Source of the DNA: an uncultured Armatimonadota bacterium
GTDB lineage: Bacteria > Armatimonadota > Fimbriimonadia > Fimbriimonadales > Fimbriimonadaceae
Direction: 5' to 3'
NCBI GenBank assembly: GCA_937862825.1
Contig: CALMEF010000277.1
Span: forward strand, 1-34,027
Length of the DNA stretch: 34,027 nucleotides
Both the position numbers and the translations under genes were made by a program. Below are positions 7,399 through 28,733 of the stretch, in pieces (position 1 is the stretch's first letter; the number at the start of each line of letters is the position of its first letter). The notes under the pieces are model-generated. The model made no database searches. It was given only the letters and a program-made list of their open reading frames with translations, and was not told the DNA's origin.

Positions 7399-8175
7399 TC
7401 AGCGTCCGCTCGGGCGCTTGCGGTAAAGAAGGAAAGAAAAGCACACAACGATACCGACAAATGCCGAAGGTTCAGGCACAGGTAACGCCATCGCCGTAAC
7501 GTCCCGGTGCGGTCCAGCAGAGACGAACGAAGTGTTCGCGTTCACAGTCGAGACCGAATAGAACCAACGGTGATACCAACTCATCGCATATAAGGTTCCA
7601 CTCGCATCAAACTCGATATCCGAGAAGTAACTGACTCCGTCTCCGTTGTTCATCGCGCCAACCGCCGTTGCGTTGGTGGACGAGTTCATCACATGGAACA
7701 AGGTGTCCGTGTTGAGACCGATGTTTCCGCTCAAATAAACGTCGCCTGTTGACCCCTGGTACGCCACTCCTGTAATCGTAAATCCGCCCACTCCGTTGAT
7801 GGATTGGGCATAGGTCACGCTGGAGGTTCCAAAGTCGAAGAAGAACAATTCCTGGTTGAAGTTGCTGAATCCCCAAAGCCCATTGTTGCCAGCAACAAGG
7901 TCGCCGATCTGGGTCTTTCCAGTTGGTCCGACCGGAATTGGCGCGCCGCTAACATCCCAGATGACTCCGAGAGAATCGGCAGAATACAAGGTCCCCGTGG
8001 CACCCATTGCCAGACTGTCCGACATGAAAGGGTTGGTGCCCAGGGGTACCTCGGCGTTGTTGGCCACATTAACTCGATATCGAGTCATATTTGTGTTGAG
8101 CGTTGCCGCAAATGGGGATGCCAATGCGCTGGTCGCTCCAACCGCAACGAGAAGCAAGGCGGACAGTCGTTTCAT
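7399..8175 (-). CDS. PEP-CTERM sorting-domain protein
   Basis: A 258-residue exported protein. ATG 8175 gives a standard signal peptide (MKRLSALLLVAVGATSALAS), with GGGG 2-5 bases upstream; the frame is open further upstream but that part is not signal-like. The body is a beta-propeller-like repeat protein (GTLYSADSLG..., SGTLYAMSWYHR...). The C-terminus carries the PEP-CTERM signal: VPEPSAF (the VPEP motif), a hydrophobic helix, then the basic tail YRKRPSGR. In known systems an exosortase processes such tails and the protein goes to the exterior or into biofilm matrix. No exosortase gene is in this window. It lies 52 bp downstream of the next secreted-protein gene. Confidence 0.85.
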   Translation of the reverse strand: MKRLSALLLVAVGATSALASPFAATLNTNMTRYRVNVANNAEVPLGTNPFMSDSLAMGATGTLYSADSLGVIWDVSGAPIPVGPTGKTQIGDLVAGNNGLWGFSNFNQELFFFDFGTSSVTYAQSINGVGGFTITGVAYQGSTGDVYLSGNIGLNTDTLFHVMNSSTNATAVGAMNNGDGVSYFSDIEFDASGTLYAMSWYHRWFYSVSTVNANTSFVSAGPHRDVTAMALPVPEPSAFVGIVVCFSFLLYRKRPSGR

Positions 8176-8227
8176 AGCCCCATTGTGCGCCAACTTTCGC
8201 TGAAACGCAAACTGAAAGAATTGCCTG

Positions 8228-10081
8228 CTATCGGGCCATGAACCTGACCTGATCCAGCTCGTGTAGCCATCCATCCTGGGCAGGATCCTCATCATTGATC
8301 GGCGTCCATTCGATTTCGAGATCAAACTGGCCGTCCATGATCACATAGTCAGCAAAACTCGTGAGCACGACGCGGCGCACGTCTTCATCAATCGGCGCGG
8401 TTGATCCAAAGATCACCTGATATTGCCCGTTGGAGACCCGCTTCAGTTTCGCATTTCTCGCGAGTCCCGGACGAGAGACCATGCCCTCCAACTCAAGCAA
8501 GACAATGACGCTGGGCACGCTTCCGAGGCCCTGACTCATTCGAAGACGGCAAGCAAGCGTGACTTCATCGTTGAAAAACGAAGCCCGGACGTTATCCGAC
8601 AACACCAACTCGCCAAGGCCACCCAAGAACTCACTGCCTTGGACAACTTCGAGCGTGGACGGATAAGCCTCTAGGTAGTTGCCCAAGTAGCCTTCTTCGT
8701 TCAGCCGATTCGCGTGGATATCGGCAGTGGAGAAATCACCATCCTGCCAGGCGAGAATGTGATGACGATCTTTGCTCGTCGCCATCGTCAGACGTCCCTT
8801 TCCTGTTGCGTCTAGGCTGGAGACATAGAAGGGGGTCCCCACCCCCCATCTGGGAGCACCGTTCAGGGTCAAGCCTGCGGCATAGACGATTCCGGTCGTG
8901 GAGGATCGTAGTTCCTGGCTCGCGACGACGATGCCGTTCACTCCGACGCCGATGTTGGCGAAGGACGGTTGATTGGCTGACGGTCCCATGACGGTGACTC
9001 CCAACTCGCCCCACTGTCGCGGCGTCTCCCCGCTCATGCGCTGAGCGATTACGGAATAGGTTGACTGAGTTGAGGCGTTGGTCTGGACGACGACCGCATA
9101 CACTGATTCGTCCCTAGGGTCATAGGCAACCGAACAACCCACGCGAATCTGGGTGGCATCGGTGACGACGACCGGCGCCCCGTGAAGTGGGAAACGTAGC
9201 GTCCCGTCGGGGTTGATGTGCTGCACGAGCGCGTTACGCGGGCCACCGATCTCATACCAGCCGCACACTACGCCACCATTTCCGTCGGAGAGAAGGGGTG
9301 GTGGCACAACCTGGATTGACCCACCTTGGGACGGATAAGGCGTACCCGTGGGAGCGTAGATCGCCACCGGCTGTGCCCACACGGGCGATCCGGCCAATGT
9401 GTAGCGCTGTGCCCAGAGGGCACGCGCCGAGTTGCCGGTCGTGTTAAACCTCCTCTGGTAGGAAATGATCACAGAGCCGCCCAATCCTGGAGCAAGGTCG
9501 CATAGGGCATACGGCTTGCCAGTCTCGCTTGCCGCCCACGTTCCCACAACCCCGCCAGCAGGATCAAGCCGAGTCCATTGATAACTGCTATCAACAGAGT
9601 ATCCGACCGCTATCGAGCCGTTGGTTAACTCGGAGACTTTGGGAAAGCCGAGAAAGCCTGCAGACGGGATTTGAGTTCCATTGGTGCCCCACGGGAGTCC
9701 TGCCGCCGCATTCACTTTGTTGACACAGATGGCATTCCCCAAGCGGTCGTCATTGAAGGTCACGAGTGCGTTGCCAAACTGATCAACATCCACATCCAAG
9801 TCTTGGGTTGACGAAACTGAACGGTCAGCGATGAGAATGCCGTTGTGTGGCCACAACTCGTTCCCCATTCGGTCAAAGCGTTGCAGGTAGACGTCATAGC
9901 CGCCAGTTGAGTTATCAAACCAGCCCATGTAGCAACCGCCGTCGGGAGTTGGGGCGATTTTGGGCTGAACTTGGGGGCCGCTACGGCTCGCGGCAACAAA
10001 GGGCGATGCCGAGGTCTCAGTCCATTGGGCTAGCGCTGACAGCGGGATCAGTGCAAGGGCTGAAGCAAGCAAGCGTCTCAT
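8228..10081 (-). CDS. Secreted propeller-like protein with PINDEDP C-terminal module
   Basis: A 617-residue protein with a signal peptide (MRRLLASALALIPLSALAQ). Residues about 25-480 contain blade-like repeats of the form YDVYLQRFDRMGNELW and ALVQHINPDGTLRF, typical of secreted beta-propellers with no known enzyme activity. Residues 495-617 are the C-terminal module shared with the genes at 11211 and 26622. It opens SDNVRASFFNDEV, has LEGMVSRPGLARN in the middle and closes EWTPINDEDPAQDGWLHELD (about 8252-8308). The module has no transmembrane helix and no basic tail, so it is not PEP-CTERM. It lies in a minus-strand cluster of four exported proteins; the gap to the upstream gene is 53 bp. 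Confidence 0.8.
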   Translation of the reverse strand: MRRLLASALALIPLSALAQWTETSASPFVAASRSGPQVQPKIAPTPDGGCYMGWFDNSTGGYDVYLQRFDRMGNELWPHNGILIADRSVSSTQDLDVDVDQFGNALVTFNDDRLGNAICVNKVNAAAGLPWGTNGTQIPSAGFLGFPKVSELTNGSIAVGYSVDSSYQWTRLDPAGGVVGTWAASETGKPYALCDLAPGLGGSVIISYQRRFNTTGNSARALWAQRYTLAGSPVWAQPVAIYAPTGTPYPSQGGSIQVVPPPLLSDGNGGVVCGWYEIGGPRNALVQHINPDGTLRFPLHGAPVVVTDATQIRVGCSVAYDPRDESVYAVVVQTNASTQSTYSVIAQRMSGETPRQWGELGVTVMGPSANQPSFANIGVGVNGIVVASQELRSSTTGIVYAAGLTLNGAPRWGVGTPFYVSSLDATGKGRLTMATSKDRHHILAWQDGDFSTADIHANRLNEEGYLGNYLEAYPSTLEVVQGSEFLGGLGELVLSDNVRASFFNDEVTLACRLRMSQGLGSVPSVIVLLELEGMVSRPGLARNAKLKRVSNGQYQVIFGSTAPIDEDVRRVVLTSFADYVIMDGQFDLEIEWTPINDEDPAQDGWLHELDQVRFMAR

Positions 10082-10134: not shown

Positions 10135-11214
10135 TCAACCCTTCCGGTGGCGCAATAGGGGCACGAGACCGAGTCCAACGAGGAGTAACCCTGCGGGTTC
10201 AGGAACGGTGTTCACCGCTATCCAAGGTCGATATTGCCTGTTACGGATACCCCAGCCCACGATGGTCCTCCCATCGTCCGAAATCCCTCGAGCACTGTTG
10301 AGATACATCCCATCAAGAACCGCACCTCCTTCGGCTAGCATGTCCATGACGTCGAGGAAGCCCGATTCTTCCGACCAAATGAACGATCTGGAACCACTGC
10401 TGGTCCGGTAACTGCCAGCAGCGAACCTGCCGTCGGTCGATATTGAAGACAGTTGGGTGTTTGAACTACCGGACGGTGAGCCTATGAACTGCATGTTGCC
10501 AAGTTCGTCCCAAGCGACCAAGTGTGTGTCGTATTGCCCTGGACCGCCAATTCCGATCATCCTCGTGCCGTCGGAGGTCATGCGAACTGAGCCGCCCATA
10601 AAGCCACTGAGCCGCCGGTACCCTTGACCCGCCGCCCATAGACATGCGAATCCGTCGAATGCCTGAATCACAGCCTTCGTACCATCAGCGTTGATTCCCG
10701 AGACTTGAGCACCACCAAACTCGCCTTCCGGCAAGGGCAACTGAAGGAGTGCTCCGTTTTCGTTCCAGATCGCGGGACGGGTCGTAAAGTCCACACCTTC
10801 TATGCCAACATAGCCTCCCACGTGCTTGCCATTAGGTGAGACCGTCATGGCGTAGCCACTTGGAGCCACACTGGTGGTCTCCAGCAACTCAATCTGCTGC
10901 CCCTTCCATCGTGCGGGCCTGGGCATTAAGCCGTCTGAGGCATACCCAATTGCAAATCCCCCGTTTGCTGACATTGCTGATACGCCGATTGATAAGTTAA
11001 GTCCATGGCGATCTAAGAACGTATAGCCAACACTCCTTTCGTACCAATAGCCTTGGCCATCCCCAGAGCCCACGACCCTAGACCCTGCCGATCCAACACC
11101 ATCAAACTCATGAATGTCATAAGGTGTCGGTGGTTCTGGCGAGTATAGGTTCCACTGGGCGAACGAGTGTCTAGCAACTACCAAGGACATCAACGCGCAT
11201 AGCTGCCGTCTCAA
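10135..11214 (-). CDS. HAF-repeat protein with PEP-CTERM tail
   Basis: An exported protein of about 359 residues built of HAF-type extracellular repeats (GISDDGRTIVGWG, AMTVSPNGKHVGGYVG, SGINADGTKAVIQAF, SSISTDGRFAAGSYR). It ends in a PEP-CTERM signal: VPEPAGLL, hydrophobic helix, RHRKG. I place the start at the TTG 11214: it overlaps the upstream stop (TTGA), has GGAG about 9 bases before it, and gives an RR-containing signal peptide (LRRQLCALMSLVVARHSFAQ). Alternatives are TTG 11229 and ATG 11190. Translation is probably coupled to the upstream gene, which also carries a HAF repeat. No function beyond a surface or matrix protein can be inferred. Confidence 0.8.
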   Translation of the reverse strand: MRRQLCALMSLVVARHSFAQWNLYSPEPPTPYDIHEFDGVGSAGSRVVGSGDGQGYWYERSVGYTFLDRHGLNLSIGVSAMSANGGFAIGYASDGLMPRPARWKGQQIELLETTSVAPSGYAMTVSPNGKHVGGYVGIEGVDFTTRPAIWNENGALLQLPLPEGEFGGAQVSGINADGTKAVIQAFDGFACLWAAGQGYRRLSGFMGGSVRMTSDGTRMIGIGGPGQYDTHLVAWDELGNMQFIGSPSGSSNTQLSSISTDGRFAAGSYRTSSGSRSFIWSEESGFLDVMDMLAEGGAVLDGMYLNSARGISDDGRTIVGWGIRNRQYRPWIAVNTVPEPAGLLLVGLGLVPLLRHRKG

Positions 11215-11771
11215 CCCAGTTTTCTCCAATAGAAGTGGTCAATGTTGTGCAACCATCCGTCGCTGGATGGGTCTTCGTCGTTGATTGGCTGCCAACTAAC
11301 CCTTGCTTTTACTTGATGGCTACCATTGAAGAACTCGGTTGCGTCCGACAGCTTTACAAAGCGGTCAGCTTGATCAACGAGCGTCGCACTTCCACCGTCA
11401 CCGAAGACCCACGATGAAGAACTATAGTTGTAGAGGTCAATCTCGTAGGAAAGGCCCGCTCGAGCAACCGACAACTCAAAGCCGATTCGAAGCTGCTCGG
11501 CCGTGCTCGCCGTGAACTGACCCAAAAGTTCAATCTGACAGGCCAGGGAAGTTGCGTCGTTAAACGCCGAAAAGCGGTCATTATCGGACTGAGCGACTGA
11601 CTCTTCGTTACCCTCAAAGGCCTCCCAAGGACAGATGCTTGTCAAGTTTGAAATTCCACCAAACCGCGTCCCGTCGGGACTGACAGCATAAGCGAACGAG
11701 AGGTTCTGGCCACTCAGCGGCGGCAGTTCCATAAATGTCTGTCCAGTCGAGAAGGCGTAGACCATGAGCAA
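11211..11771 (-). CDS. Short HAF-repeat protein with PINDEDP module, signal peptide likely frameshifted
   Basis: As an intact frame this is 186 residues from TTG 11771. It begins inside a hydrophobic stretch (MLMVYAFSTGQTF), has one HAF-like repeat (AYAVSPDGTRFGGIS) and then the C-terminal module (residues 62-186), opening SDNDRFSAFNDATSLAC and closing VSWQPINDEDPSSDGWLHNID. It lacks the positively charged n-region that an exported protein needs. An ATG at 11794 after a GTAT context reads MRRVLLL in another frame. Removing two bases (11772-11773) or adding one would join that to LLMVYAFSTGQ and make a complete signal peptide. Either the gene carries a frameshift or the sequence has an error here. 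Confidence 0.65.
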   Translation of the reverse strand: MLMVYAFSTGQTFMELPPLSGQNLSFAYAVSPDGTRFGGISNLTSICPWEAFEGNEESVAQSDNDRFSAFNDATSLACQIELLGQFTASTAEQLRIGFELSVARAGLSYEIDLYNYSSSSWVFGDGGSATLVDQADRFVKLSDATEFFNGSHQVKARVSWQPINDEDPSSDGWLHNIDHFYWRKLG

Positions 11772-11872
11772 TGCAATAGAAGTACTCTCCTCATACTTTG
11801 TAGGACGGTGAATGTGCGAGGTACGTTCTCTTCCTTCAGTTCTTTAAAACATACTGGGCACTAACTGTCCGG

Positions 11873-23710: not shown

Positions 23711-24027
23711 GTGCGGAGGCCGAGGACCGTGCCGCCGACTACCTTCTGGGCCTGGGCTACACCCTCGTAACAAGACGGTTCACGGTCCGAGAAGGAGAAC
23801 TTGATCTCGTCGCCATGGACGGTGAGACCTTGGTTTTCGTCGAAGTGAAGCACCGTCGTGGCAAGGCTCACCCTGAGGAGGCGATGAACCCGTTGAAGGC
23901 GGGGCGGTTGCTTGCGGCCGCCGAGAGATACCTTGAGAAATCGGGGTTATCTGACCGACCATTCCGTTTCGACCTCATCGCAATTGAGAACGAACAATTG
24001 CGTCACCATGTTGACGTTTCGCGGTAA
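23689..24027 (+). CDS. yraN: YraN/UPF0102-family nuclease-fold protein
   Basis: A 112-residue protein of the UPF0102 family with a restriction-endonuclease-like fold: [20 protein letters not shown] carries the E...D...E-x-K active-site pattern. Its biochemical role is unsettled. I take the TTG at 23689 as the start because AGGAG lies five bases before it and it gives the family N-terminus [21 protein letters not shown] at 23638 is open but only adds residues shadowing rnhB. The gene overlaps rnhB by 22 bp. In many bacteria yraN sits next to rnhB, which supports both calls. Confidence 0.88.
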
Positions 24028-24037
24028 CGTGATACCT

Positions 24038-26629
24038 GTGAGTTCCAAGCGCTTGGTCGTGATTGACGGATATAGCCTGCTCTATCGGGCGTTCTTTGCG
24101 ACACGGTTCTTGAGCACGTCTGATGGCCGGCCCACCAACGCACTCTACAGTTTCACCAACATGTTGTTCTACCTCCTGGAGAACATCAAGCCAGACGCGA
24201 TCGCGGTCGCATTCGATGCACCGGGCAAGACCTTTCGACATAGCGAATATGCTGAATACAAGGGCACAAGACGTGAAACGCCAGAGGAACTGAAGTCGCA
24301 GTTTCCTATCGCTCGTGACCTCATGGCTGCGCTGGGCGTTCCCACTCTCGAACTGACCGGCTACGAGGCCGACGACATTGTTGGAACGATTAGTCGTCTC
24401 GGAGAAGAAAACGGCTACGAAACCACCATCGTGACCGGAGACTTGGACGCTCTGCAACTGGTTGATGACTTTGTATCGGTTCTCACTCCCAAAGTGGGCG
24501 TTACAGAAACGTCGACCTACACACCTTCGAAGGTCCTCGAACGCTATGGGTTCGGGCCCGATCTGATCCCAGACTACAAGTCGATCGTCGGTGACACAAG
24601 CGACAACATCCCCGGCGTTCCAGGCATCGGGGAGAAAGGTGCAACCACGATCATCCAACAGTTTGGCTCGATCGAAAACATGCTGGAACACTTCTCGGAA
24701 CTCGATCCAAAGTTCCAAAAGAAAATTGACCCAGTAAGAGACCAAATGGTTAAGTCGAAATGGCTCGCAACGATTGTCCGAGACGTGCCATTAACCTATG
24801 ATTTTAAGCCGTTCCAACTTGATGAGAACCAACTGTCCGCGGCGAAAGCCATGTTGGAGTCGCTTGAGTTCAAATCTCATGTTCGGCGCGCAGATGGCAT
24901 TCTCGGACCCTATCTGGCTGGTGGCCAACGTCCAGCAGTGGAAGTCAAGGTGGAGAGTCTGAGCGTCGACTTGGTCGAAGTCAAATCACTTGATGCCTTG
25001 AAGAAACATGTTGGTAACGGGCCGTTCGCTGCTTACTTTACGACCGAAACCGGGCAAATCGATATGTTTGACGAGTCGGTTCAAACCGGGTTTGTCGCCC
25101 GAGGAACCGATGTGGCCCGCGCACCAGCCGACCTTGCAAAGGCCCTGATTCGCGAACGGCTCAGCCACGCAATTCTCCATGATGCCAAGCCGATTCTGCG
25201 AGGCCTGGGCAATCCTAAGGGATTGAAGACGGACACGAGTTTGGCCGCCTTCGTTCTACAATCTGGACGCTCAAACTATTTGCTTCGCGATCTCATCCAT
25301 GGTTACCTTGACCTGACTCCGGCATCCCACGGGGACCTTGCCGCGGGACTGTTCCTCCTCGAACCCGAGTTACGGACAAAGATTGACAAAGAGGGTCAAA
25401 CGTCGGTTCTTGACCGCATCGAAATGCCCCTGGAGCCAGTCTTGGGCGAACTAGAAGACAACGGCATTCAACTCGAACCTGGTGTGTTGAACGAGTTCTC
25501 GAAGATGCTACAAACGAGAATCGAGGAGACGGCTCGGACGGTTTTCGACCTGGCAGGCCACGAGTTCAACATCGGGTCACCAAAGCAACTCGGCGAAGTG
25601 CTCTTTGAGGAGATGATGCTCCCCGGTCCCAAGAAGACCAAGACCGGCTACGCTACGGGTGCCGAGGTCCTTCAGTTCCTTGCTCCTGCTCACCAAATCT
25701 GCGCCGAAGTCTTGAACTGGCGCGAACTCACCAAACTTAAATCAACATACGCGGATTCTCTTCCCAAGTTGGTCAGAGACGATGGGCGAATCCACACCAC
25801 CTACAATCAAACTGGAGCGGCTACCGGACGGATTTCGTCGAACGATCCCAACCTGCAGAACATCCCCATTCGGACGGAACTTGGTCGGGAGATTCGCCGA
25901 GCGTTTGTCGCTGAACCCGGCAGAAAACTCCTTTCTCTCGACTACTCACAGATTGAGTTACGGGTTCTCGCGCATATGTGCGAAGACGACGCCTTGGTGC
26001 GCGCCTTCACGACCGGCGAAGATGTGCACACAGTCACAGCATCGCTGATGTATCAGGTGGAGCCAAGTCAGGTCACTCGGGAGCAACGCAACTACTCCAA
26101 ACTCCTCAATTACGCCGTGCTTTACGGGGTTACCGACTACGGCCTTGCCAATCAACTTGGAGGCAACTTCTCGGTTGGTGAAGCAAAGGCTCTCATTGCC
26201 GAATACAACACTCGTTTCCCCAAAGTGAAAGGATTCACGGATTCAATCATCGCCGAGGCCCGCTCAAAAGGCTTCACATTGACCCTTTCTGGTCGCAGGA
26301 GATACTTCCCAGATATTCACGCCGCCAATCGCAACGAGCGAATGTATGCCGAGCGACAGGCGATGAACGCACCCTTGCAAGGCACTGCGGCCGACATGAT
26401 GAAATTGGCCATGATCAAGGTTGATGCTGCGCTCGAGGGCAAGAACACCAAGATGCTGCTTACCGTTCATGATGAACTTGTTTTCGAACTTGACCCTGAT
26501 GAAAACGACCTCGTGGAAACGTTGCGGAAGGAAATGGAAAATGCCCTTCCACTCAACGTTCCCGTCGAGGTCGATGCGAAGATTGGCGACAACTGGTTAG
26601 AGATGTCGCCAATCAAGCGGCCTAGTTAA
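24038..26629 (+). CDS. polA: DNA polymerase I
   Basis: PolA removes RNA primers and fills repair gaps. From GTG 24038 it has 863 residues; ATG 24008 is a possible earlier start overlapping yraN. The 5'-3' exonuclease domain has VIDGYSLLYRAFF, YKGTR, GYEADDIVGT and GDTSDNIPGVPGIG. The 3'-5' proofreading domain is degenerate: the FDTET motif reads FTTET (Thr335 for the metal-binding Asp), and later exonuclease motifs are not recognisable. The polymerase domain is intact: Asp635 in LDYSQIELR, motif B RNYSKLLNYAVLYG, and HDE (811-813) in motif C. The residue equivalent to Taq Phe667 is Tyr692. Its 3' end overlaps the convergent lipoprotein gene by 8 bp. Confidence 0.96.
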   Translation: MSSKRLVVIDGYSLLYRAFFATRFLSTSDGRPTNALYSFTNMLFYLLENIKPDAIAVAFDAPGKTFRHSEYAEYKGTRRETPEELKSQFPIARDLMAALGVPTLELTGYEADDIVGTISRLGEENGYETTIVTGDLDALQLVDDFVSVLTPKVGVTETSTYTPSKVLERYGFGPDLIPDYKSIVGDTSDNIPGVPGIGEKGATTIIQQFGSIENMLEHFSELDPKFQKKIDPVRDQMVKSKWLATIVRDVPLTYDFKPFQLDENQLSAAKAMLESLEFKSHVRRADGILGPYLAGGQRPAVEVKVESLSVDLVEVKSLDALKKHVGNGPFAAYFTTETGQIDMFDESVQTGFVARGTDVARAPADLAKALIRERLSHAILHDAKPILRGLGNPKGLKTDTSLAAFVLQSGRSNYLLRDLIHGYLDLTPASHGDLAAGLFLLEPELRTKIDKEGQTSVLDRIEMPLEPVLGELEDNGIQLEPGVLNEFSKMLQTRIEETARTVFDLAGHEFNIGSPKQLGEVLFEEMMLPGPKKTKTGYATGAEVLQFLAPAHQICAEVLNWRELTKLKSTYADSLPKLVRDDGRIHTTYNQTGAATGRISSNDPNLQNIPIRTELGREIRRAFVAEPGRKLLSLDYSQIELRVLAHMCEDDALVRAFTTGEDVHTVTASLMYQVEPSQVTREQRNYSKLLNYAVLYGVTDYGLANQLGGNFSVGEAKALIAEYNTRFPKVKGFTDSIIAEARSKGFTLTLSGRRRYFPDIHAANRNERMYAERQAMNAPLQGTAADMMKLAMIKVDAALEGKNTKMLLTVHDELVFELDPDENDLVETLRKEMENALPLNVPVEVDAKIGDNWLEMSPIKRPS

Positions 26630-28670
26630 CCGTCCACTCAGCAAAGTCGGCGTTGTGAAGCCAACCATCCTGAGCGGGGTCTTCGTCGTTGATCGGGTTC
26701 CAAGTAATGCGAACGCGCATATCGCGGTCATCGCTCACAAACCGACCTGGGTTCGAGGTCACGTTTGCACTGACGGTCGAGTCCAACGTCGTCGCCACTT
26801 GGCCCTGAACCACAACGTACAGACCGTTATCATAGTTCAGCATCGAAATGACCTGCGCCAAACCCGGTCGAGCGACGCTACCTTCGAAGGTGAACAAGAT
26901 TGCCGTGGGTGCCATGTTCGTTGTGAAACTCTCAATACCAACGGCTGCTCCCAGATTGTCGGGATCGTTGAAGACGCTCCAGTAGACATCGTCGGACTCA
27001 TCACAACTCTCCTGAGTTCCGGAGAACGTTTCGCCAGAATCTGTGGAGATTTTGTTGGCTTTGCCCTCCTTCTTGAAGCACTCAATCACGAAGTAGTCAA
27101 TCGTTCGACCATCGAACCAGCCGCCACCTGTCATTTCGCGAGTCGTGCCGTTCACCTTTACACGGGTGATCCGACAGTCATCGGGATTGTTGCGCTGGGC
27201 GCCATCGTCCGCGATATCGACGTCATAACTTCCGTCTTCCTGCTTGCCGATGCCGACAATCGCGGCTGCGTGTCCGGGAATGCGCACTTCAACGTCGCAT
27301 CCGTCCTTGACAGCCTCCATGACATCGTCAAGACTCCTGGTGGTCTTGGTTTGGATTGGCCAGCCATTGGCTTTGGCATGATCGTCCTTTTTCTTCCACC
27401 ACGCTGCGGGATCATCCCTGCCACCTGGGCAGCCGTTGGGACCCCAACCGGTGATTCCCTTGAGAGCCCCTATGCCAATGTCAGCGTCGGGAATGTCCCA
27501 GCCATTCTTTTCCTTCAGGAACTTGAGGCTGTTCGATAGTGCCGTTGGGGCGCACTCGTTGGTTCCACACGGCTGGTTCGGGAATCCTGTATGCCCAGCC
27601 GATTGAACGATAAAGAAGTCCTTGATCGTTGTGTGAGGAAACGGAACTGGTCCGATTGTCTCACCGATGAAACCTGAATACACCTGCAGCCACTTGTCTG
27701 CCGCAATGTACGTGTTCGTCAAGTCCGGCATCGTCTCGATCCTTGTTGGTGTGACCGAGTAGCCAAATGGACCGGGTCGTACTGGACCCGTCCTTGAGGT
27801 CGGGAATGGGAAGTGGAACACCAACGTGTGAAGGCGTCCGACTCCCTCGTAAGAGAAGAGCGGCAGGTTGCGAACCGGCCAGGTTCCCTCTGAGGCAAAG
27901 TTGAAATACTGAACATCTGGCGTTCCCAGATATTGAACTTCTACCACGCCCCATTCTGTATTCAGGAACTCATTTCCATCACCGTTAAAAAGGGTTTGGA
28001 AGACGCTGAGTGGGCTGACCGCCTGGTTCGTCACGTACATGTGATCGTAGTAGGCTTGTGAACCAGCGTTTGCGGAATACAAGTCGACGGCGCCCAAGTT
28101 CAAAATGGCCAATGTATCGCCGACGGTTCGCCACGGACCATCAAACAGGAGTTTCTTGTTGTAATACACCTGCTGGCGATCATTTGCCAGGTCAATGACC
28201 ACGTCAATGGGAACCCAGCAGTTCTCAATCAACGGGAGTTCACCGCCAATCGCATTAACACCATCTCGGAACCTTACAAAGTTGTTTGCCGCATCGCATT
28301 CCAGTTGGAGACTCCAACTCTTGGGACCCGATGGACTGTCCGAGTATCGGTTCATTAAGATGAAATAGGTGTCTCCGACCGATGAAGACGGAACAAACTG
28401 TTTCGTGTGGAAACGCCAAGTTCCGTTCACAATGCCCTGAAACTCGTGAACCAGGTCAGCCGAGCCGGTGATGTTCACAGAGTTGGGCGCAGAAACAGAC
28501 TGAGCATTCGACGTTGAGGCCGTGAACGCTGGACTGTTCTCCCAACCCTTCCACCCCTGGATACCGTGCAGACTCTGCCCAGTTGGGTAGTTGTCGAAGT
28601 TATCGTGTACCGGGCCACATCCCACAATGGCCAGTAAAAGCAAGACGCATAGCGAGGAAAATCTCCTCAT
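26622..28670 (-). CDS. Lipoprotein with C39-like peptidase domain and PINDEDP module
   Basis: A 682-residue lipoprotein from ATG 28670, which has GGGAGG six bases upstream. The signal ends LLAIVGC with Cys18 as the lipid site. Residues about 24-215 look like a concanavalin-type lectin sandwich (FDNYPTGQSL...WRFHTKQFVP...YYDHMYVTN). Residues about 355-530 resemble a C39/papain-like peptidase: Gln366 then Cys373 (GTNECAPTALSNSLKFL), His467 (PGHAAAIVGIG) and an Asp near 486-488 (DVDIADDG). Residues 559-682 are the shared module, opening SDDVYWSVFNDPDN and closing TWNPINDEDPAQDGWLHNAD. It could cut or bind surface glycoproteins; that is inference. It lies 63 bp downstream of recX. Confidence 0.78.
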   Translation of the reverse strand: MRRFSSLCVLLLLAIVGCGPVHDNFDNYPTGQSLHGIQGWKGWENSPAFTASTSNAQSVSAPNSVNITGSADLVHEFQGIVNGTWRFHTKQFVPSSSVGDTYFILMNRYSDSPSGPKSWSLQLECDAANNFVRFRDGVNAIGGELPLIENCWVPIDVVIDLANDRQQVYYNKKLLFDGPWRTVGDTLAILNLGAVDLYSANAGSQAYYDHMYVTNQAVSPLSVFQTLFNGDGNEFLNTEWGVVEVQYLGTPDVQYFNFASEGTWPVRNLPLFSYEGVGRLHTLVFHFPFPTSRTGPVRPGPFGYSVTPTRIETMPDLTNTYIAADKWLQVYSGFIGETIGPVPFPHTTIKDFFIVQSAGHTGFPNQPCGTNECAPTALSNSLKFLKEKNGWDIPDADIGIGALKGITGWGPNGCPGGRDDPAAWWKKKDDHAKANGWPIQTKTTRSLDDVMEAVKDGCDVEVRIPGHAAAIVGIGKQEDGSYDVDIADDGAQRNNPDDCRITRVKVNGTTREMTGGGWFDGRTIDYFVIECFKKEGKANKISTDSGETFSGTQESCDESDDVYWSVFNDPDNLGAAVGIESFTTNMAPTAILFTFEGSVARPGLAQVISMLNYDNGLYVVVQGQVATTLDSTVSANVTSNPGRFVSDDRDMRVRITWNPINDEDPAQDGWLHNADFAEWTVN

Positions 28671-28733
28671 TTGATACCTCCCGGTGCACTTTGAAGCACC
28701 TGTATCGAAACAATACACCCGTTGTCGCAAAAG

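Follow-up and report, generated by a model that had tools for sequence, protein, structure and literature searches.

The PEP-CTERM domain was recognised as a C-terminal sorting domain by its position, its cargo and its number (PMC1569441), and the T9SS-CTDs were recognised by similar marks, that is, a strict C-terminal position, diversity of the cargo and copy number (PMC10202324). The domain analysed here, the PINDEDP-type tail, shows the same features: it is found at the extreme C-terminus, once per protein, on signal-peptide cargo with diverse N-terminal parts and in many copies per genome. Since defining features of the two known classes were tested and are lacking, the tail belongs to neither of them; the best reading by analogy is that it would work like both.

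Like the PEP-CTERM/exosortase system (EpsH; PMC1569441), the tail occurs many times per genome at the extreme C-terminus of very diverse signal-peptide proteins, and PEP-CTERM itself is present in the genome of the window, where it is exchanged with the PINDEDP-type tail between neighbouring paralogs. However, PEP-CTERM comprises about 24 amino acids with the PEP residues, a membrane helix and basic residues, whereas the PINDEDP-type tail is a folded domain of 150 amino acids without any of these. It ends in a strand followed by three to five residues, with no helix or basic end in sequence or model, which rules out a PEP-CTERM or LPXTG type, as the earlier note had already stated. The PEP-CTERM profiles TIGR02595/PF07589 match other proteins and none of the tails.

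Like the T9SS-CTDs (PF18962/TIGR04183 and PF13585/TIGR04131; PMC10202324), the tail is a predicted beta-sandwich fold located at the very C-terminus, occurs on dozens of diverse cargo proteins and has conserved motifs close to the end. It differs in being longer, in its predicted CBM-like jelly roll, in occurring in Armatimonadota and not in Bacteroidota, and in the lack of a sequence match and of SprA. Neither TIGR04183/PF18962 nor TIGR04131/PF13585 matched the window proteins or 22 members of the wider family, and the translocon Sov/SprA stayed below the cut-off in all 14 genomes tested, including that of the window, with the SprA profile finding only short stretches (profile positions ~592-689) far under the cut-off. 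Identity with the T9SS-CTDs is thus ruled out.

The tails of the window and its genome

The window is the whole stretch of DNA that was analysed (34,027 nucleotides), and comes from an uncultured bacterium of the Fimbriimonadaceae (Armatimonadota). All three open reading frames that carry the tail are real (Table 1). Their tails are homologous, with pairwise blastp E values of 4e-19, 8e-20 and 1e-25 and identities of 32-35%, and the three-way alignment of the C-termini covers about 124 amino acids with 30 invariant columns. E values in this range, together with 63 matches in the genome, rule out a chance similarity. The motifs SD(N/D)xxxSxFND, E-x-x-V-x-R-x-G-L and W-x-PINDEDPxxDGWLHxxD are present in all three, and the end of the domain is followed by three or four residues and the stop codon. 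The shared C-terminal module proposed in the earlier note is therefore borne out, but its limits had to be revised: a conserved GEEFxGDLxSLxxSDD, some 25 residues upstream of the limit first given, marks the start of the unit. The DNA coordinates given for the tail of the C39-like protein hold, whereas the residue numbers of this protein vary with the start codon chosen.

Table 1. Positions of the tails, their loops and adjoining features in the window
Feature	Position	Strand	Basis
C-terminal jelly-roll tail (~145 aa, predicted fold) of the propeller-like exported protein (8228-10081)	8228..8665	-	blastp, alignment, AF2 model
PINDEDPAQDGWLH loop, copy 1 (propeller-like protein)	8261..8302	-	codon comparison, motif pattern
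N-terminal part of the propeller-like protein, signal peptide MRRLLASALALIPLSALAQ, without Pfam match	8666..10081	-	
C-terminal tail of the short HAF-repeat protein (11211-11771)	11211..11630	-	alignment
PINDEDPSSDGWLH loop, copy 2 (short HAF-repeat protein)	11247..11288	-	codon comparison, motif pattern
C-terminal tail of the C39-like lipoprotein (26622-28730)	~26622..27038	-	blastp, alignment
PINDEDPAQDGWLH loop, copy 3 (C39-like lipoprotein)	26655..26696	-	codon comparison, motif pattern
N-terminal part of the C39-like lipoprotein, lipobox MRRFSSLCVLLLLAIVGC	27039..28730	-	
HAF-repeat protein with PEP-CTERM tail, directly downstream of the PINDEDP-tailed HAF gene	10135..11229	-	profile match
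PEP-CTERM-type protein (VPEPSAFVGIVV...RKR) adjoining the propeller gene	7399..8325	-	profile match

Two details of the window are noted in addition. The short HAF gene seems decayed: the region upstream of it (11772-11850) holds a signal-peptide start in another frame, with MRRVLLL... off-frame relative to ...LLMVYAFSTGQTFMELPPLSG, so that a frameshift seems to have disrupted the signal peptide; the gene also lacks most of the N-terminal region that its 528-amino-acid paralog has. The lipoprotein gene overlaps tail-to-tail by eight bases (26622-26629) with the DNA polymerase I gene (23912-26629, plus strand).

One copy used as query gave the 63 matches in the window's own assembly of 3.40 Mb, and a profile of 60 copies found 63 strong and about 11 weaker tails there. 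The first 66 tails collected all lie 2-20 residues from the stop codon, most of them 3-5. A degenerate DNA pattern for INDEDP matched the genome 51 times, each time within a tail, while the reversed control pattern gave no match. Among 294 loci from this genome and its relatives, the latter represented by their better-scoring hits, the domain is the last one in all 217 different stop-ended carrier proteins; the profile match ends within 10 residues of the protein end in 198 of these and within 45 in all, and none contains a second copy. The six-frame searches were blind to position and would show internal copies, but there were none among the hits examined. The predictions that the tails would be confined to extreme C-termini and would be numerous (63 here, 19-49 in relatives) were thus correct.

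The same applies to the expectation of signal peptides and of unrelated N-terminal parts. By a simple rule, 52 of the 56 carriers whose 5' end is complete have a signal peptide; the same rule gave 7 positives among 39 internal stretches used as control. The four exceptions include the HAF gene of the window with its start in the other frame, and the others look shortened or start far downstream. The cargo is very mixed, comprising laminin-G-like, bacterial Ig and cadherin domains, VPS10 and SBBP propellers, RHS repeats, subtilase, P-domain, beta-helix, TIG and others, and each domain type is present in only one or two carriers. Matches to catalytic families are few among the carriers; where a carrier matches any family at all, it is mostly a propeller or a repeat protein. 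The assignment of one carrier family (L068/L054) to the VPS10 propellers was rejected, since Pfam gave no match in L054; the VPS10 proteins are L038 and its paralog L045.

Predicted fold, conserved loop and relatives

The domain is about 150 amino acids long, and an AlphaFold2 model built from 73 aligned sequences (pLDDT 92.5, pTM 0.88) predicts a jelly roll like that of carbohydrate-binding modules. Foldseek comparison of the AF2 models with the PDB returned jelly-roll sandwiches including CBM4, CBM16, CBM28, CBM29, CBM32 and CBM61, and furthermore MAM domains and one phage baseplate domain, mostly with TM scores of 0.4-0.7 and about 10% identity. Model and matches support the jelly-roll-like fold suggested before. 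The likeness to the CBM4/16/61-type jelly rolls is one of predicted fold; the TM scores lie at about 0.45-0.6, the identity is only about 10%, and the tail has no internal or repeated copies.

The PINDEDP form has no sequence-family match in Pfam, NCBIfam or PDB. A profile search of 291 genomes of the phylum found the domain in 73, mostly in the same family and one sister family. The relatives have a wider form with the same fold and order of motifs, in which the loop reads GPVxxxxWxARxD instead of PINDEDPxQDGWLHxxD; with the wider model, four relatives have 19-49 copies each, and three named MAGs, among them that of a Planctomycetaceae bacterium, have 24-35. Searches of GTDB contigs, viral contigs, phages and plasmids gave no PINDEDP form, and spread of the tail by phages or plasmids was therefore rejected. 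As against the earlier view of a tail common in Armatimonadota, the PINDEDP form does not extend across the phylum: the genome of the window is the only one in which it was found, and this one genome represents its clade.

In 5 of 22 members the wider form matches PF14741 (GH114_assoc) weakly (best E 2.4e-5). At the curated cut-off PF14741 has no match to the PINDEDP form in the window genome but finds one place each in eight other genomes of the phylum, and these loci likewise end in the domain. As judged from the profile matches, the wider form is a distant relative of PF14741, although Pfam describes the latter as an N-terminal domain associated with GH114.

The PINDEDPxQDGWLHxxD loop joins the last two strands of the predicted jelly roll. 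The model has its lowest confidence here (block mean pLDDT ~70), but no other part of the domain is as conserved across the family, with a mean majority frequency of 0.81 in the loop versus 0.42; the loop residues N, E, D, G and W do not vary among 60 copies. The near-invariant DP of the EDP triplet suggested Asp-Pro self-cleavage, but four copies have EEP and three have EDA. These exchanges of D for E and of P for A favour an acidic binding site and oppose cleavage, which was rejected as a general mechanism.

Paralogs of the window genome share 78% identity in the loop and 28% in the core. This contrast is weaker in the relative G293 (55 versus 31%) and absent in six other genomes, so that a private loop in every genome was rejected as a general rule. 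In the Planctomycetaceae genome, nearly twenty tails (L176, L180, L184, L188, L192 and L204-L216) have a loop of their own, SLPFWVFSTQNLYLPYR, at the place of PINDEDP. The copies there are alike throughout (62% in the loop, 61% in the core), and with a core as similar as the loop, recent expansion explains the shared loop. Other tail types are present in this genome as well, and one Fimbriimonadales genome has GPVLxFPW at the place of the loop.

The three window genes encode the signature with different synonymous codons, as had been noted, and in a set of 49 copies each motif position shows a good mixture of synonymous codons, close to the carriers' own usage. This points to selection on the protein, and not to recent copying, as the cause of the conserved residues. 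A tree built without the loop still places the tails of the window genome in one clade (30 sampled copies, 100/99) with long branches. From these sequence data the tails appear to have expanded long ago within this lineage, with one loop staying fixed throughout.

Exchange with PEP-CTERM and the search for a partner

Besides the PINDEDP-type tails, the window genome contains about 77 PEP-CTERM proteins (78 places), and its exosortase is located on contig C42. Two large classes of C-terminal tail thus stand side by side in one genome of 3.4 Mb. Several neighbouring paralogs carry different tails on N-terminal parts that are 75% (contig C287), 69% (C190), 53% (C43) and 45% (C203) identical; the alignments extend to one common junction, after which PEP-CTERM follows in one protein and the PINDEDP-type tail in its sister. 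The window itself contains an example in its two adjacent HAF genes. Between genomes, homologs of the carrier L068 end in this domain where the genome is rich in tails, and in other sequences elsewhere. Such an exchange would be expected of interchangeable sorting or attachment tails; by itself it is silent on the destination of the proteins.

Nine of the L068 homologs (L270, L272, L274, L275, L277, L278, L281, L285 and L292) lack the domain and end in repeats of the type DVNGDGxVDxxDLxxVLxxFG, which resemble EF-hands or dockerins. The name dockerin was given by eye only and was not retained, with no Pfam dockerin match in the two checked.

Co-occurrence with one specific secretion or maturation gene, which the earlier note had anticipated, was not found among the candidates SprA, exosortase, GspD and the neighbouring genes. 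The window genome encodes both exosortase and the type II secretin GspD, but both also occur in genomes with few or no tails; exosortase is present in two genomes (G100 and G087) in which the profile found no tail. No informative neighbour gene recurs next to the carriers; only generic families such as ABC-transporter ATPases do, and a partner among the neighbours was rejected for this reason. In two genomes of 1.5 Mb from the same family (G132 and G133), neither tail nor exosortase was found; these are reduced genomes that may have lost surface sorting.

Possible roles of the tail

In its position, its cargo, its number and its exchange with PEP-CTERM the tail bears the kind of marks by which sorting domains are known, which makes sorting or surface retention the most likely role. 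We give a probability of somewhat more than one half (about 0.55) to the reading that the tail serves as a C-terminal domain for sorting or surface retention, acts via its jelly roll and, in this lineage, makes its contact through the PINDEDP loop. The carriers would be exported by Sec via their signal peptide and fold in the periplasm, and the C-terminal CBM-like jelly roll would then route them to the cell surface, hold them there, or both. A single shared partner, most likely either a surface glycan specific to the species or a receptor in the outer membrane, would probably be contacted through the acidic loop PINDEDPxQDGWLHxxD, perhaps with the help of a metal, and this route would run parallel to the PEP-CTERM/exosortase route and could replace it. 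The earlier note's proposal of a surface-sorting or matrix-binding module is supported for the most part, but the surface location, the matrix binding, the common partner, the loop as contact site and the metal binding are all inferred by us from these data. Several points stand against the sorting or retention role: no partner gene was found, the fold alone fits a substrate-binding CBM equally well, and the strong contrast between loop and core is confined to the window genome, the only one that represents the PINDEDP clade.

A tentative and rather doubtful extension is a new outer-membrane sorting system of the Armatimonadota with relatives in Planctomycetota, in which the tail would be read by a lineage-specific receptor or glycan and the loop would be a key that is re-set in each lineage and common to the paralogs of a genome.

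In the T9SS, type A CTDs are cut off by PorU. A secretion signal proper, with an unknown outer-membrane translocon that reads the folded tail, exports the cargo and may cut the tail off, seems unlikely for the PINDEDP-type tail, though it deserves serious consideration. It would agree with the C-terminal position, cargo diversity and copy number known from the T9SS-CTDs (PMC10202324), with the absence of tandem and internal copies, unlike in ordinary CBMs, and with the lineage-specific conservation of the loop, which suggests co-evolution with a receptor; but SprA was below cut-off in every genome tested, T9SS-CTD models are not among the matches, and neither an informative recurrent neighbour nor a conserved cleavage site was seen. 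We consider it still less probable that the tail is an ordinary CBM with no part in sorting, which captures nutrients by binding polysaccharide of the environment or the matrix. The top Foldseek matches (CBM4, 16, 28, 29, 32 and 61) and the distant likeness to the glycoside-hydrolase-associated PF14741 are what one would expect of such a module, whereas the scarcity of catalytic families among carriers that are mostly propellers and repeat proteins, the invariant C-terminal position with one copy each, the alternation with PEP-CTERM in sister genes and a motif loop private to one lineage are not.

Jelly-roll CBMs often hold structural calcium, and the acidic loop NDEDPxxD-G with its D/E exchange could be an internal metal site of a structural cap, one that serves to stabilise or close exported proteins and has no shared partner. 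Such a cap is very improbable, since it leaves unexplained both the exchange with PEP-CTERM at a common junction and why the relatives keep the fold without the motif. That the tails are products of recent duplication or gene conversion, similar without any functional message, has next to no probability left: they do form one clade even without the loop, but the core identity of only 28%, the long branches and the mixed synonymous codons in the motif refute a recent event. The old lineage-specific expansion described above is compatible with a sorting or retention role.

To our knowledge, the surface delivery and retention of exported proteins in Armatimonadota and many Planctomycetota is largely undescribed, and the tail is probably an undescribed way to deliver proteins to the cell surface or to hold them there. 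It marks dozens of proteins per genome, alternates with PEP-CTERM in sister genes and, in its PINDEDP form, is missing from Pfam and NCBIfam; its recognition would allow a considerable share of the proteins exported by these bacteria to be annotated and would offer a starting point for tracing the partner. Neighbouring pairs whose tails are swapped lend themselves directly to a test, as they offer the same cargo with two tails. A further carrier (L056, 4602-6488, plus strand) has a tail that ends in INDEDPSRGRPSLLDS and has lost its last strand, apparently by a frameshift, and is perhaps a natural knock-out of the tail.
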